Source: Candidatus Nanopelagicales bacterium
GTDB taxonomy: Bacteria > Actinomycetota > Actinomycetes > S36-B12
Assembly (NCBI GenBank): GCA_030726915.1
Contig: JANRCR010000023.1
Span: 26,777 to 81,437, forward strand
Length of the DNA stretch: 54,661 nucleotides
Reading direction: 5' to 3'
Of the stretch, positions 3,123 to 47,787 are shown piece by piece. Under the pieces are notes generated by a model. It saw only the letters and a list, made by a program, of their open reading frames with translations, ran no database searches and was not told the origin of the DNA. Positions within the stretch are counted from its first letter, which is position 1. Each line of letters begins with the position of its first letter. The position numbers and the translations under genes are program-made.

Positions 3123-3890
3123 ATGGCGTCCGCGCGCACGACGGCAAAGAAGGCGGCCCCGGTCAAGAAGGCGGCCCCCGCGAAGAAGGCGGCCCCCGCA
3201 AAGAAGGCAGCCCCCGCGAAGAAGGCGGCCCCGGTGAAGAAGGCGTCCCCGGTCAAGAAGGCGTCCCCGGCGAAGAAGGCCGCCCCGGCAAAGAAGGTGG
3301 CGCCGACAAAGAAGGCGGCCCCGGTCAAGAAGGCGGCCCCGGCAAAGAAGGCGGCCCCGGTGAAGAAGGTGGCCCCGGTGAAGAAGGCCGCCCCGGCAAA
3401 GAAGGTGGCGCCGGTCACGAAGGCCGCCCCGGTCAAGAAGGCGGCCCCCGCGAAGAAGGCGGCCCCGGTCAAGAAGGCAGCCCCGGCGAAGAAGAAGTTG
3501 GCGGTGCGCGAGGACGAATCGCCTTGGTCGCCGGCCGAGATCGCCGAGGTGCGCACGGCGCTGGATGCCGACGCCATCCGACTGGCGGAGGAGATCGCAA
3601 TCACGGACGCCGACATCGCCGAGTTGATTGCTGATTCCGGTGATGGTGCTGGAGACGACCAGGCCGATACGGGCAGCAAGACCTTTGAGCGGGAGCATGA
3701 GATGTCCCTCGCCAATAATGCGCGCAACATGCTCCAACAAACAGAGCATGCGTTGGCGCGCATTGACAATGGGACCTACGGAATCTGCGAGGTGTGCTCG
3801 AGGCCGGTGGGCAAGTTTCGACTTCAGGCCTTCCCTCGGGCGACGATGTGCAAGGCCTGCAAGGAGGTTGAGGAACGCCGCGCCTACTGA
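3123..3890 (+). CDS. DksA/TraR-family RNA polymerase-binding protein with lysine-rich repeat tail
   Basis: The C-terminal 130 or so residues match the DksA/TraR family: a helical segment (SPWSPAEIAEVRTALDADA), then FEREHEMSLANNARNML, and a C4 zinc finger (CEVC 18 residues before CKAC) with the family signature DNGTYGICEVC. Such proteins act in the RNA polymerase secondary channel. The N-terminal half (residues about 9-122) is instead 19 tandem hexapeptides of the type KKAAPV/KKAAPA, resembling histone H1-like tails and likely to bind DNA or RNA or be disordered. The ATG at 3123 follows a GGAG motif 6 nt upstream; the longer open frame upstream lies in non-coding sequence. Length is 255 residues, about twice a usual DksA-like protein because of the repeats. 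The regulated genes are unknown. Confidence 0.85.
   Translation: MASARTTAKKAAPVKKAAPAKKAAPAKKAAPAKKAAPVKKASPVKKASPAKKAAPAKKVAPTKKAAPVKKAAPAKKAAPVKKVAPVKKAAPAKKVAPVTKAAPVKKAAPAKKAAPVKKAAPAKKKLAVREDESPWSPAEIAEVRTALDADAIRLAEEIAITDADIAELIADSGDGAGDDQADTGSKTFEREHEMSLANNARNMLQQTEHALARIDNGTYGICEVCSRPVGKFRLQAFPRATMCKACKEVEERRAY
3147..3488 (+). repeat. Coding tandem repeat, 19 units of 18 nt
   Basis: Nineteen in-frame 18-nt units, each near AAGAAGGCGGCCCCGGTC, encode KKAAPx hexapeptides with x mostly V or A. Variants are KKASP (two units), KKVAP (three) and TKAAP (one). Nearly all changes are silent or conservative, so the repeat is maintained at protein level. Units this alike could change number by slippage, so copy number may vary between strains or be mis-assembled. 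Confidence 0.95.
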
Positions 3891-3920: not shown

Positions 3921-4484
3921 GTGACCGAAGAAGCCACTGTCGTGCAGACGCGTCGGCCACGCCTTATCTGGCTCACCGTCGGCGTTGCTCTGGCGGTGAT
4001 TGTGATCGACCAGGTGACCAAGGCCTGGGCACTCGCCACACTTCAGCCCCGCATCGCTGCGGGAGAGGGTCCGGTCGAGGTGGTGGGCAGCTGGTTCCGG
4101 CTGACGTTTGTCGAAAACACCGGCGCGGGATTCGGTATCGGTGCGGGGTTTACGTGGCTCTTTGCCATCATTGCCGCCGTTGTTGCCGTCGTGATTTTGC
4201 GTACGGCGACCAAGCTGGGCAGCCGAGCCTGGGCAATCGCGCTCGGTGGCCTGCTGGGGGGTGCCGTGGGCAACCTCATCGATCGGCTGATGCGACCGCC
4301 CGGCTTTGGGGAGGAATACTCCGGGCCAGGGCAGGGGTACGTGGTCGACTTCTTGCAACTGCCCTACTGGCCCGTCTTCAATGTGGCGGACATGGCGATT
4401 GTCGGGTCGGCGATTCTCATGGTGGTCCTGACCATCCGCGGTGTGGAGATGTCCGGACGTCCCCGGGTGACAACTGATGCGTGA
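3921..4484 (+). CDS. lspA: Lipoprotein signal peptidase (signal peptidase II)
   Basis: Membrane aspartyl protease that removes signal peptides from prolipoproteins after Lgt has lipidated them; lgt itself lies at 25250. The 187-residue protein has four hydrophobic segments and the family motifs VIDQVTKAW (29-36), FVENTGAGFG (63-72), GGAVGNLIDR (113-122, catalytic Asp121) and FNVADMAIVGSA (153-164, second catalytic Asp157). The N terminus carries a short hydrophilic extension usual in actinobacteria. The GTG start is supported by TAACCT 6 nt upstream and the absence of a ribosome-binding site. It is followed 24 nt later by rluD, a linkage common across bacteria. Confidence 0.96.
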   Translation: MTEEATVVQTRRPRLIWLTVGVALAVIVIDQVTKAWALATLQPRIAAGEGPVEVVGSWFRLTFVENTGAGFGIGAGFTWLFAIIAAVVAVVILRTATKLGSRAWAIALGGLLGGAVGNLIDRLMRPPGFGEEYSGPGQGYVVDFLQLPYWPVFNVADMAIVGSAILMVVLTIRGVEMSGRPRVTTDA

Positions 4485-4508: not shown

Positions 4509-5432
4509 ATGTCTGAATCCCGCCGACTACCGGTCCCCGAGGGTCTCGTCGGTGAACGCATCGATGTGGCACTGTCCCGCATGCTGGGCCTGTCCCGATC
4601 GGCGGTTGCCGAATTGTGCGCGCAGGGTGCTGTGCACGTTGATGGCCACGTTGCCGCCAAGTCGGATCGGCTACTCGCGGACCATTGGATTGACGTCGCG
4701 ATACCCACACCGGTGGTGCCGGGGGATCCGGAGCCGGTCGAGGGCATGCTCATTCGGCATGACGATGATGACCTGGTCGTTATTGACAAGCCCGTGGGCG
4801 TGGCTGCGCATCCGAGTCCCGGCTGGACCGGTCCGACGGTGATCGGTGGTCTCGCCGCTGCGGGCTACCGCATCTCCACGTCGGGAGCGGCGGAGCGACA
4901 GGGAATAGTGCACCGATTGGATGTCGGCACGACGGGGTTGATGGTTGTCGCCAAAAGCGAGCGCGCCTATACCGATCTCAAGCGGCAGTTCAAGGAGCGG
5001 ACCCCCACCAAGATCTATCGGGCGATCGCGCAGGGCCTCCTGGATCCCCTCACCGGCACGATTGATGCACCGATTGATCGGCACCCCACGGCCGACTACC
5101 GCATGGCTGTGGTCTCGGGCGGCAAACCCAGCGTCACCCACTACGAGACACTCGAGGCCTTCCCCTATGCGAGTCTCCTGGAAGTGGATTTGGAGACCGG
5201 GCGCACCCATCAGATCCGTGCGCATATGTCCGCCATGCGACACCCGCTCGTCGGTGACTCGATGTATGGCTCTGATCCGACGCTGGCGGATCGGCTTGGA
5301 TTGTCGCGGCCAGCGTTGCACGCGGCCCGACTGGAGATCGACCATCCGGGGACGGGCGAGCGTCTCATCATGGAGTCGCCGGACCCGCCTGATTTTGACG
5401 ATGCGCTAAAGCGACTGGCTGACACGCACTAG
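4509..5432 (+). CDS. rluD: RluD-family 23S rRNA pseudouridine synthase
   Basis: Converts specific uridines of 23S rRNA (RluD family: positions in helix 69) to pseudouridine. Residues about 8-65 form an S4 RNA-binding domain (GERIDVALSRMLGLSRSAVAEL), and the catalytic core follows with HRLDVGTTGLMVVAKS near residue 135, whose Asp138 is the expected catalytic residue. Later motifs include RTHQIRAHM and HPLVGDSMYG. At 307 residues the length is normal. The ATG start follows a GAGG motif at about 4499-4502. RluA/RluC paralogues share this architecture, so the exact target positions are inferred from family and the lspA linkage. Confidence 0.92.
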   Translation: MSESRRLPVPEGLVGERIDVALSRMLGLSRSAVAELCAQGAVHVDGHVAAKSDRLLADHWIDVAIPTPVVPGDPEPVEGMLIRHDDDDLVVIDKPVGVAAHPSPGWTGPTVIGGLAAAGYRISTSGAAERQGIVHRLDVGTTGLMVVAKSERAYTDLKRQFKERTPTKIYRAIAQGLLDPLTGTIDAPIDRHPTADYRMAVVSGGKPSVTHYETLEAFPYASLLEVDLETGRTHQIRAHMSAMRHPLVGDSMYGSDPTLADRLGLSRPALHAARLEIDHPGTGERLIMESPDPPDFDDALKRLADTH

Positions 5433-5535: not shown

Positions 5536-8500
5536 GTGACTTCAGGAGGCAGTGACTTCGTCCACCTCCACGTGCACACCGAATACTCCATGCTCGACGG
5601 CGCGAGCAGGCTGGACGACCTCATGGCGGCGGCTGTCGAGCAGGGCATGCCCGCCATCGCGATGACCGATCACGGCAATCTTTTTGGCGCCTATGACTTC
5701 TATACGTCGGCGAGGTCCGCTGGCATCAAACCCATCATCGGACTTGAGGGCTACTTCGCACCCCAGGGTCGCTTCGAGCGCCGCGCATTCGACTTCGGTG
5801 GCGGATTCGATGAGTCATCATCCGAGGATGGTGCCGGCGGGCGCGGCACCCAGAGTTACACCCACATGACGCTGTGGGCGGAGAACACAGCGGGCATGCA
5901 CAATCTTTTTCGGGTGTCCTCACTTGCCAGCCTGGAGGGCCAGTACTTCAAGCCACGGTTCGACAGTGATGTCTTGTCGACGTATGGCACAGGGCTGATC
6001 GGCACGACAGGATGTCCCTCGGGAGAGGTCAATCGCTGGCTGCAGGCAGGGCAGTATGACAAGGCTCTCCAGACCGCTGCCGATATGCGTGACATTCTCG
6101 GTCCGGGCAACTACTTCTGCGAGGTCATGGACCACGGTCTCGCGATCGAGCGGCGCTTCCGCGAGGACCTGTTGCGTATCGCCCGATCACTCGACCTGCC
6201 CCTCGTCGCCACCAACGATCTGCACTATGTGCGCGCGAGCGATGCCGACACTCACGATGTCTTGCTGTGCATCGGCACCCGGACAACGATGGATGATCCC
6301 AAGCGTTTCCGCTTCGATGCTCGAGACTTTTATCTCAAGACGTCTGCGGAGATGCGTGAGGTGTGGCGTGAGTTGCCGGAGGCGTGCGACAACACACTCC
6401 TCATCGCTGAGCGTTGCGATGTCACCTTCAACGAGGGTGCCAACCTCATGCCCCAGTTCCCCGTCCCGGCGGGGGAGAGCGAGGAGTCCTGGCTCGTCGC
6501 CGAAGTCGAGCGCGGCCTTGCTCGCCGATACCCCACGGGGGTGCCGGATGAGGTGCGCCGTCAGGCGACCTATGAGTTGGGCGTGGTCATCCAGATGGGA
6601 TTCCCGGGCTACTTCCTCGTGGTCGCTGATCTCGTCCGCCATGCCAAGGACAACGGCATTCGGGTCGGTCCGGGACGAGGCTCTGCCGCGGGAGCCATGA
6701 TTGCCTTCGTGCTCGGTATCACGGATCTCGATCCCATCCAGCACGGGTTGCTCTTCGAACGTTTCCTCAACCCCGAGCGCATTTCGATGCCCGACATCGA
6801 TATCGATTTTGATGAGCGTCGCCGCTCCGACATGATCCGCTACGCCACGGAGAAGTACGGCGAGGAGCGGGTCGCGCAGATTGTCACCTTTGGATCGATC
6901 AAGGCGAAGGCAGCCATCAAGGATGCTGCGCGTGTTCTGTCCTTCCCCTACTCCCTGGGGGATCGCATTACCAAGGCGATGCCGCCTTCCGTCATGGGCA
7001 AGGACATCTCCCTGTCCGGCATCTTCGACACGAGCCACGCGCGCTACGGCGAGGCGGCGGAGTTCCGCACCCTGTATGCATCCGATCCTGATGTCGCCAG
7101 GGTTGTCGACACGGCACAGGGTCTTGAAGGGCTGAAGCGTCAGCCCGGTGTTCACGCTGCGGGCGTCATCCTCTGCCGTGAACCGCTCATGGACGTCATT
7201 CCGGTCTGGCGGCGAGAGCAGGACGGTGCCGTCATCACGCAGTTCGACATGGGCGCGTGTGAGGCTCTGGGCCTGCTCAAGATGGACTTCCTCGGCCTGC
7301 GCAATCTCACCGTGCTGGATGATTGCCTCGCCAACATCCACCTGAATCGCGGTGAGACCGTGGTGCTGGAAGATCTCGCTCTCGAGGATGGCCCCGCGTT
7401 CGAACTGCTGTCCCGCGGTGACACCCTCGGCGTGTTCCAACTCGATGGTGGGCCTATGCGGGCGCTCCTGCGCTCGATGCAGCCCGACTCCTTCGAGGAC
7501 ATCTCCGCCGTCCTGGCCCTATATCGACCCGGTCCCATGGGCGCCAACGCTCACAACGAGTACGCCGACCGCAAGAACGGCCGCAAGCCTGTCGTCCCCA
7601 TCCACCCCGAACTCGCGGAGCCCCTCGCGGACATTCTTGGCGACACCTACGGGCTCATCGTGTACCAGGAGCAGGTGATGGCGATAGCGCAAAAACTTGC
7701 GGGCTATTCGCTCGGCAAAGCGGATCTGCTTCGCCGCGCCATGAGCAAGAAGAAGAAGGACATTCTCGACAAGGAGTACGTCCCCTTCCGCGAGGGCATG
7801 CGAGTCAATGGCTATTCCGAAGCGGCCATCCAGACTCTGTGGGACATCCTCGTCCCCTTCTCCGACTACGCCTTCAATAAGGCCCACACCGCCGGATACG
7901 GGCTGGTGTCGTTCTGGACGGCCTACCTCAAGGCTAATTTCCCGCAGGAATACATGGCGGCACTGCTGACGTCGGTGAAGGACGACAAGGACAAGAGCGC
8001 GATCTACCTCAATGAGTGTCGGCGCATGGGGATCAAGGTATTGCCACCCGATGTCAACGACTCCGACTTTGACTTCACGCCTCGGGGCAGCGATATTCGC
8101 TTCGGCCTCTCGGCCATTCGCAATGTGGGCGCGAATGTCGTGGAGTCCATCATCGCGACTCGCCGGGCCCGCGGGCGCTTCGCCAACTTCCTGGACTTCG
8201 TCGATGCGGTCGAGGTCTCCGTGTGCAATAAGCGCGTTGTGGAGAGCCTCATCAAATCGGGTGCCTTTGATTCCCTCGGTGACACGCGCCGTGGCCTCGT
8301 AGCCGTGCACGAGCAGGTCATTGATGCTGCGGTGGAGCTCAAGCGTGCGGAAGCCATCGGGCAATTTGACCTGTTCGGTGGCATGGGTGACAGCGATGCG
8401 GTTGATTCCGGGCTTCGGGTGATGCCGGACATCCCACTGGGTGAGTGGGAAAAGTCGGTGCTACTCGCTCATGAGCGAGACATGCTGGGGCTCTACGTAT

Positions 8501-9081
8501 CCGATCATCCACTGCACGGGGTCGAGCAACTCCTGGCTCAGGTGACCGACTGCTCAGTCGCGCATCTGCATGCGGGTGATCGGCCCGAGGGGCAGGTGGT
8601 CACGGTCGGGGGTCTGGTGACGGCGGTCCAGCGCAAGACGACGAAGCAGGGTTCCGTGTGGGCCATTGTCACGCTGGAGGATCTCGATGGTGGCGTGGAG
8701 GTCATGGTGTTTCCCCAGATGTACGCCGCGGCCGGCACCCTGCTGGTCGATGATGCCGTCGTCCTCGTCCGTGGTCGCATTGATCGACCGGATGAGGACG
8801 CACCGCGCCTGGTCGCGATGGAGATCAGTCAGCCGGACGTCAGTGAAGCTCACACCGGGCCTGTGCGACTGACCCTTCCGGCAGCCCGATGCATTCCTCC
8901 GGTGGTGGAGAGGCTCAAGGAGATTTTGGCCGTGCACCCCGGCACAACAGAGGTGCATCTGCATTTGTTAGCGCCCGGGCGCACGACTGTTCTACGCCTT
9001 GATGACCGCTTGCGTGTGACCCCCAGCCCCGCTCTCTACGGCGACCTCAAGGCCCTTCTGGGGCCGACGTGTCTCACCTGA
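5536..9081 (+). CDS. dnaE: DNA polymerase III alpha subunit (DnaE1)
   Basis: Replicative DNA polymerase catalytic subunit, 1181 residues. The N-terminal PHP domain is intact ([17 protein letters not shown] at 10-26 and [14 protein letters not shown]), so a PHP-linked proofreading exonuclease as shown for mycobacterial DnaE1 is possible. The family-C polymerase active site [12 protein letters not shown] lies near residues 418-429. Further polymerase motifs are [19 protein letters not shown] and [21 protein letters not shown]. An OB fold at about 1018-1090 ([11 protein letters not shown]) completes the usual order. Length and intact motifs fit essential DnaE1 rather than the damage-tolerance paralogue DnaE2. 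The GTG start is supported by TAGGGT 6 nt upstream. Confidence 0.97.
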   Translation: [1181 protein letters not shown]

Positions 9082-47630: not shown

Positions 47631-47654
47631 CTCCGGTCGGGTAGGGTCTGCTCC

Positions 47655-47732
47655 GTCAAGAGCGCCAGCGTTAAGCCCCGGCTCGCTGGCCGGCAACCCT
47701 CGCACCGCGGTGGGGTGCCCCGGGTGAAGACC
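47655..47732 (+). promoter_or_regulatory. SAM-IV-type riboswitch upstream of metK
   Basis: The region has the core of actinobacterial SAM-IV riboswitches: CCAGCG (47665-47670) pairs with CGCTGG (47684-47689); conserved AAGCCCCGGC and CCGGCAACCCTC follow; the CACCGCGGTG hairpin, GGGGTGCCCCGGGTGA and closing GAC (47729-47731) complete it. TAGGGT at 47642-47647 is a fitting -10 box. Downstream are hairpins GCCCGC-ATCC-GCGGGC (47735-47750) and GGGTC-GTAA-GACCC (47757-47770), likely the expression platform, then AAGGGA 5 nt before the start. SAM should repress metK. Confidence 0.85.
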
Positions 47733-47787
47733 AGGCCCGCATCCGCGGGCAAGCGCGGGTCGTAAGACCCAGACCGAAGGGACGCAC

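Follow-up and report, generated by a model that had tools for sequence, protein, structure and literature searches.

A 54,661-nt stretch of a draft genome of a Candidatus Nanopelagicales bacterium (contig JANRCR010000023.1, positions 26,777 to 81,437; the window) encodes a DksA-like protein with a long N-terminal tail rich in lysine, alanine and proline (the KAP tail), and, judged by sequence and gene order, this gene is the local ortholog of the actinobacterial DdbA (SCO2075). The DksA-like domain appears to retain the feature that acts on the polymerase active site without the main features that couple DksA to ppGpp, and the protein is probably a secondary-channel factor that a non-specific cationic leash tethers to the nucleoid. 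The tailed architecture itself has already been published for DdbA and is not a new kind, which the preliminary description of the locus, drawn up from the DNA letters, did not recognise; that description is partly supported in its interpretation. What is new is that the tail is distributed patchily among the class orthologs, that residues of the ppGpp site 2 are missing and that the sigma factor carries tails of a matching type. DdbA consists of a histone-H1-like N-terminal domain and a C-terminal DksA domain (PMC9043899), and it affects nucleoid compaction and stress (PMC11942623; the compaction/stress role also in PMC11229371 and PMC9043899). The loss of DdbA leads to looser spore nucleoids (PMC11229371; PMC11942623). 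The main text of the Streptomyces nucleoid proteome study has no mention of SCO2075, DksA, TraR or DdbA (PMC3784963).

The coordinates of the gene, its parts and its neighbours are collected in the table. The 255-aa reading frame opens with an ATG preceded by GGAG five bases upstream; this start is putative, with a longer frame from a TTG at 2973 as the alternative. Residues 9-122 are made of hexapeptide units in an exact 18-nt register, and Tandem Repeats Finder placed the array at 3142-3494 with a period of 18, 19.6 copies, 83% matches and no indels. The description of the tail as 19 KKAAPx units holds for the number and the register and is slightly idealised in the motif, as only 13 units read exactly KKAAP[A/V] and six are variants (three KKVAP, two KKASP and one TKAAP). 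The 122-residue tract contains 38 lysines, one arginine and no acidic residue, and all 37 lysines of the array are encoded by AAG, so that the lysine codons carry no silent change. The array itself and its conservation in relatives exclude a chance origin, and the tailed DksA-like gene is confirmed as a real observation. A Pfam match of the protein to a fission-yeast repeat (DUF963) was rejected as a low-complexity match, and long open reading frames on the other strand and in other frames across the array were rejected as a by-product of the GC-rich 18-nt period.

Features of the tailed DksA-like gene and its downstream neighbours (positions in the window)
Feature	Position	Strand	Evidence
DdbA-type protein, 255 aa, KAP tail and DksA-like domain	3123..3890	+	ORF/translation; PF01258, 32.3 bits
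N-terminal tail of 19 KKAAPx units (18 nt each, in frame)	3147..3488	+	Tandem Repeats Finder; unit table
Predicted first coiled-coil helix, residues 137-171	3531..3635	+	AlphaFold2 model; fold match to DksA
Tip of the coiled coil: D179 and D182 (D71 and D74 in E. coli), G184 (A76 in E. coli)	3636..3674	+	Alignment; 72/72 family and 88/88 class orthologs
Predicted second helix of the coiled coil, residues 179-216; E. coli R91 and K98 replaced by N199 and Q206	3657..3770	+	Alignment; AlphaFold2 model
C4 zinc finger, cysteines 222, 225, 243 and 246 (Pfam match residues 217-252)	3771..3878	+	PF01258
lspA (lipoprotein signal peptidase), next gene downstream and conserved there	3921..4484	+	PF01252, 122.9 bits; 68/72 family orthologs
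RluD-type pseudouridine synthase, next gene, same direction	4509..5432	+	PF00849, 107.4 bits, and S4 domain
ORF of 1181 aa after the RluD-type pseudouridine synthase	5536-9081		DnaE by inspection

The tailed gene ends 30 nt before lspA. Divergent from it, the minus strand at 1759-2945 carries a gene for a substrate-binding protein and, upstream of that, a gene for a regulator with a helix-turn-helix and a TOBE domain; the pair resembles a molybdate transport operon. A SAM-IV riboswitch (97.8 bits) was found farther along the window, at 47654-47761.

The C4 zinc-finger DksA-like domain that had been noticed behind the array was borne out by a PF01258 score above the cut-off of 24.9 bits and by the presence of all four zinc cysteines. 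In a phmmer search the domain matched 6ptg (Dks of Chlamydia), 4ijj (DksA2 of P. aeruginosa) and 1tjl (DksA of E. coli). The AlphaFold2 model, calculated from an alignment of 34 rows of which 33 relatives were taken from the best 80 loci, has a mean pLDDT of 82.7 and predicts the two long helices followed by the zinc-finger end; the part of the tail included in it (residues 104-122) has a pLDDT below 50, which is consistent with disorder. Foldseek returned five matches with E < 0.001, every one of them DksA or DksA2 (4ijj, 7khi, 1tjl and 5vsw with E from 4.5e-6 to 1.5e-4). The model thus predicts a two-helix coiled coil with a globular zinc domain, the fold shared by E. coli DksA and P. aeruginosa DksA2 together with the DxxD tip. 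To our knowledge, neither of these two proteins has such a lysine tail.

Membership in a named family is less direct, because none of the NCBIfam models reached its own cut-off with the window protein. The top score belongs to YteA (TIGR02890; 75.2 bits against a cut-off of 134.4), which spans residues 180-252 and model positions 47-119 of 159; the YteA-type relatives thus provide the best model, yet one below its cut-off, and the matched part has no lysine tail. The DksA equivalog cut-offs were missed as well (65.6 against 105 for DksA_like and 50.7 against 115.5; models NF033459 and TIGR02420), and the protein is best described, on these scores, as DksA-like and not as a DksA equivalog. The histone H1-like model NF038053 gave 19.5 bits against a cut-off of 80. 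The likeness of the tail to histone H1-like proteins and HupB, which had been proposed from the start, is borne out in composition, and for the H1-like proteins it appears to be a likeness of composition only. The third and the fourth zinc cysteine are each replaced by aspartate in two of the 88 class orthologs described below, and the fourth is an aspartate in 12 of the best 80 loci, which leaves an incomplete C4 finger in some relatives. The source genome has a second DksA/TraR-type zinc-finger protein, on another contig (C43, L012), which is tail-less and, by eye, has no DxxD tip; of the two PF01258 matches in this genome only the tailed one has the tip.

A profile search with the domain detected orthologs, at a domain score of at least 186 bits, in 72 of the 85 genomes of the family; another 11 had no match and two (G004 and G046) had a weak paralog only. 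Orthologs were also present in 88 of 118 class genomes, a set that includes the source genome and two others of its family, and 30 genomes had none at E 1e-25. The gene order is strongly conserved: lspA lies within 800 nt in 68 of the 72 family orthologs and downstream within 1000 nt in 87 of the 88 class orthologs. In Streptomyces, lsp is SCO2074 (PMC4941574) and ddbA is SCO2075 (PMC11942623), and the Streptomyces loci among the best 80 have an lspA match downstream, so that synteny and sequence make the window gene an ortholog of the Streptomyces gene next to lsp, the S. coelicolor position being taken from the papers. Domain identity is 58-74% across the best 80 loci, many of which are from Streptomyces; the nearest named loci among these 80 belong to uncultured Actinomycetes, followed by Catenulispora, Streptomyces, Phycicoccus and Knoellia. 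The window protein and Streptomyces DdbA have in common the N-terminal lysine-rich domain, the C-terminal DksA-like domain, the lsp neighbour and about 60% domain identity. They differ in the tail, which is irregular and rich in K, A, T and G in Streptomyces, with lengths that depend on the chosen start codon, whereas that of the window protein is a regular 18-nt hexapeptide array. In two loci, each of which apparently appears as two records (L115/L027 and L172/L029), lspA lies about 3 kb downstream with something inserted between. Two metagenome bins labelled Rubrivirga sp. (L020) and Bifidobacterium breve (L029) carry the locus of this family; they seem to be the records underlying L113 (G036) and L172 (G026), and their labels are probably wrong.

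The alignment with E. coli DksA pairs D71 with D179, D74 with D182, A76 with G184, R91 with N199, K98 with Q206, R129 with F237 and K139 with K247, with five residues inserted ahead of the coiled-coil tip. Both tip aspartates are invariant in the family (72/72) and in the class (88/88); since one of the two patterns that retrieved the best 80 loci includes the first tip aspartate, the counts for the tip are taken from the class draw. The alanine of the tip, A76, is important in E. coli DksA, and it is glycine in every one of the 72 family and 88 class orthologs. D74 is required for the function of E. coli DksA (PMC6488371). At site 2, the ppGpp phosphates are coordinated by K98, R91 and K139, and the K98A or R129A variant loses site-2 ppGpp binding and retains polymerase binding (PMC7676912). 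In the orthologs, the equivalent of K98 is glutamine in 72/72 of the family and in 86 of the class, with glutamate in the other two, and is never lysine (0/88). The equivalent of R91 is asparagine in 71 family orthologs (serine in one) and in 67 class orthologs (serine in 12, others in the rest, with the residues itemised for 85 of the 88), and that of R129 is phenylalanine in 69 (tyrosine in two, valine in one) and in 80 (arginine in five, others in the rest), respectively. Only K139 is kept, in 72/72 and 86/88. Because these site-2 residues are lost, E. coli-style ppGpp coupling of the tailed factor seems unlikely. A 2025 review lists DdbA among the factors acting with ppGpp (PMC11942623); we argue that such action, if true, would not proceed via an E. 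coli-type site 2. R91 may also help to keep DksA of E. coli in place on the rim helices of beta-prime (PMC6488371), and its loss makes polymerase binding by the window protein less certain.

The tail was followed through the relatives with a start-independent tract score. This score rewards K, A and P and penalises acidic residues, which partly builds in the composition values given here. Of the 72 family orthologs, 45 have an upstream frame that is closed, and 44 of these have a KAP tract of at least 25 aa; the other 27 have no closed frame and stand outside this count. Tract length in the 45 has a median of 100 aa and a range of 11-146, and the 44 tailed members have a median lysine fraction of 0.31, with 30 acidic residues among 4121. 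The units include KKAAPA, KKAAPV, KKAPA, KPVKK, KKSAV and irregular ones, and the expectation that the repeat number can vary holds between species. The lone exception (L163 in G032) has an 11-aa stub with the domain and the lspA neighbour intact, and is thus a natural tail-less member. In one of the 44 tailed members (L122, from the 5-contig assembly G039), the tail is spread across three reading frames, owing to sequencing errors within the repeat or else to genuine frameshifts.

Across the class the picture is different. With a tail defined as at least 30 aa containing at least eight lysines, 54 of the 88 orthologs are tailed, 27 are tail-less and seven are undecided, as their frame is open to the edge of the available stretch. 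In two of the 27 (L217 and L220), a stretch of 94-98 aa is rich in A and P and contains 6-7 lysines, and 26 of the 27 have lspA downstream. Two families (f6 and f77) each contain tailed and tail-less orthologs, so that, if they are natural groups, the tail was probably gained or lost more than once. In a wider draw of 197 genomes of the phylum, lysine-rich stretches were seen by eye in nine of 18 distant loci (L138-L155). Conservation of the tail in related genomes, which the preliminary description had proposed as a check, is thus found within the family and fails in the tail-less part of the class; it is lineage-bound.

An expanded or collapsed mis-assembly of the repeat deserves consideration, because 27 of the 72 family contigs break off in the 500 nt ahead of the domain, and one does so on the downstream side. 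The source genome is itself a 2.2-Mb draft of 56 contigs, 95% complete. The clustering of contig ends at the array makes the copy numbers in draft genomes unreliable, and the 19 of the window may be off. It is barely credible, though, that the tail as such arose in assembly: of the 20 ortholog-bearing genomes that consist of a single contig, 13 have the tail, six lack it and one is undecided; the units of the window array differ among themselves; and the array sits within a 103.6-kb contig. The tail is therefore not an assembly artefact, the point on which the earlier proposal could have fallen. Nine single-contig genomes of 1.2-1.4 Mb from one family (f76) are all among the tailed, and their tracts have 25-43 lysines.

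The preliminary description had also read the silent substitutions in the array as a sign that selection acts on the peptide, a claim that the window array taken alone does not establish and that stands for the pooled arrays of the family. In the window, 22 of 38 differences between units and consensus are silent, against a null mean of 12.9 (P = 0.001), in units that are not independent; counted as distinct kinds of change, six of 11 are silent against 3.9 under the null (P = 0.12). The window array by itself is no proof of selection on the peptide. Among the 72 family arrays, 20 qualified by having six or more KK...P units in register, and in these 85 of 132 distinct changes from the array consensus are silent where 40 are expected if the same base changes are placed at random, with none of 5000 draws as high. 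As KK and P served to select the units, a fair test looks at codons 3-4 only, and it gives 40 silent changes of 61 against 23.5 expected, again with 0/5000 as high. Over the 20 pooled arrays, the excess of silent changes indicates that the tail peptide is selected. In the family, the lysine codons of the tail (AAG 1715, AAA 258) have the same proportion as those of the domain (342, 51).

Lysine-rich tails are known from other chromosome proteins, including HU and TopA (PMC11229371; PMC7398561). HupS/HupB and the actinobacterial TopA resemble the window protein in their lysine-repeat tails and differ from it in that the tail is C-terminal and the folded domain is another one. In the source genome, one of two HU matches (L199, contig C17, 93-359) has a KAP tail that breaks off where the contig ends and the other (L200) has none, and TopA has a lysine-rich C-terminal end. 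The AlgP and PhaF proteins of Pseudomonas carry a K-P-A repeat tail likened to histone H1, with a variable repeat number in AlgP (PMC9239181); their folded domain is unrelated, the unit is a KPAA tetrapeptide and they are granule-associated, and AlgP shares only composition with the window protein. A similar tail was found on the primary sigma factor, the N-terminal region of which is the subject of a study in M. tuberculosis (PMC10011835). This factor was found in eight of 11 genomes of the genus (L292-L299), and all eight carry a KAP-type N-terminus, which in three is truncated at the edge of a contig. A search of the source assembly found no primary sigma factor; its contig C3 ends within an N-terminal KAP tail (L205, last bases), and the sequence flanking that gene on its 5' side matches the one beside the primary sigma-factor gene in relatives (tblastx E 1e-105 to L292). 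The tail of the genus sigma factor is of the KKAAPx/KKAPA type like that of the window protein, the folded domain is unrelated and there is no excess of DNA sharing. Gene conversion between the two tails was considered and rejected: in five genomes with both tails, one DksA tail being cut, the shared 15-mers were 0.075 within and 0.068 between genomes (P = 0.41). It is a doubtful though conceivable idea that the KAP tail is a portable nucleoid address tag shared by the sigma factor, the DksA-like protein, HU and TopA, and that the tailed factor has swapped E. coli-style ppGpp control for control by location.

The explanation that we favour combines these observations as follows. The DksA-like coiled coil would most likely enter the RNA polymerase secondary channel with the DxxD tip foremost, and the disordered chain of 19 units would most likely be a non-specific cationic leash holding the factor on the nucleoid. 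Such tethering could raise the local concentration of the factor near transcribing polymerase; the length and exact sequence of the leash would be free to vary, with its composition under selection. The nucleoid association proposed from the tail agrees with the papers on the Streptomyces ortholog (PMC11942623; PMC11229371; PMC9043899). Several findings speak against this explanation: the domain occurs without a tail in many lineages, as in the 27 class orthologs and the family stub; the tip alanine is replaced throughout and residues are inserted before the tip; and the best NCBIfam model is YteA and not DksA, with all models below cut-off. The replacement of R91 in most orthologs bears against polymerase binding in particular.

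The tail has no feature that favours DNA over RNA or polyphosphate, and the main rival explanation is that it binds polyphosphate or RNA and places the factor in starvation granules or at ribosomes. AlgP, whose tail repeats KPAA, is associated with polyphosphate granules and sets their spacing, and the study that describes this considers an interaction of lysine with polyphosphate (PMC9239181). The resemblance to AlgP is one of composition, however, the Streptomyces ortholog affects nucleoid compaction (PMC11942623), and the similar tails of the lineage belong to proteins that act on DNA (a sigma factor, one HU and TopA), and we regard this explanation as unlikely. Alternatively, the tail may for the most part be a by-product of tandem duplication that the cell tolerates, in which case any cationic and soluble stretch would be acceptable and its functional effect small. 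The tail-less orthologs, the stub, the wide variation in length and unit and the genome with the frame-shifted tail would all fit such a by-product, but its retention in nearly the whole family and in the nine small single-contig genomes, and the depletion of replacement changes over the 20 arrays, make it a distinctly unlikely account. Phase separation, suggested in the preliminary description, would have the tail drive polymerase or nucleoid condensates together with its KAP-tailed partners. Four proteins of the lineage bear similar tails, and the tail is repetitive and of low complexity; tails of like charge repel one another, however, so that a shared polyanion would be needed, and no link at the DNA level between the sigma and DksA tails was seen within a genome in the 15-mer comparison. 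Condensate formation is accordingly regarded as very improbable, and the nucleoid leash is retained as the preferred explanation.

For the patchy class-wide tail, the missing site-2 residues and the sigma-factor tails, no earlier report was found in a literature search mostly of papers open without subscription, which covered DdbA through three later papers. An architecture that has been studied in spore-forming Streptomyces turns out to be widespread in Actinomycetes and is kept even in genomes of 1.2-1.4 Mb, which makes it unlikely that spore compaction is the only function of DdbA; the tailed lineages with small genomes presumably do not sporulate. The loss of the K98 equivalent in all 88 class orthologs leads to the prediction that the factor would act on polymerase without ppGpp at site 2, and the tail-less orthologs found in nature offer ready-made controls for the contribution of a cationic tail to a factor acting on polymerase.
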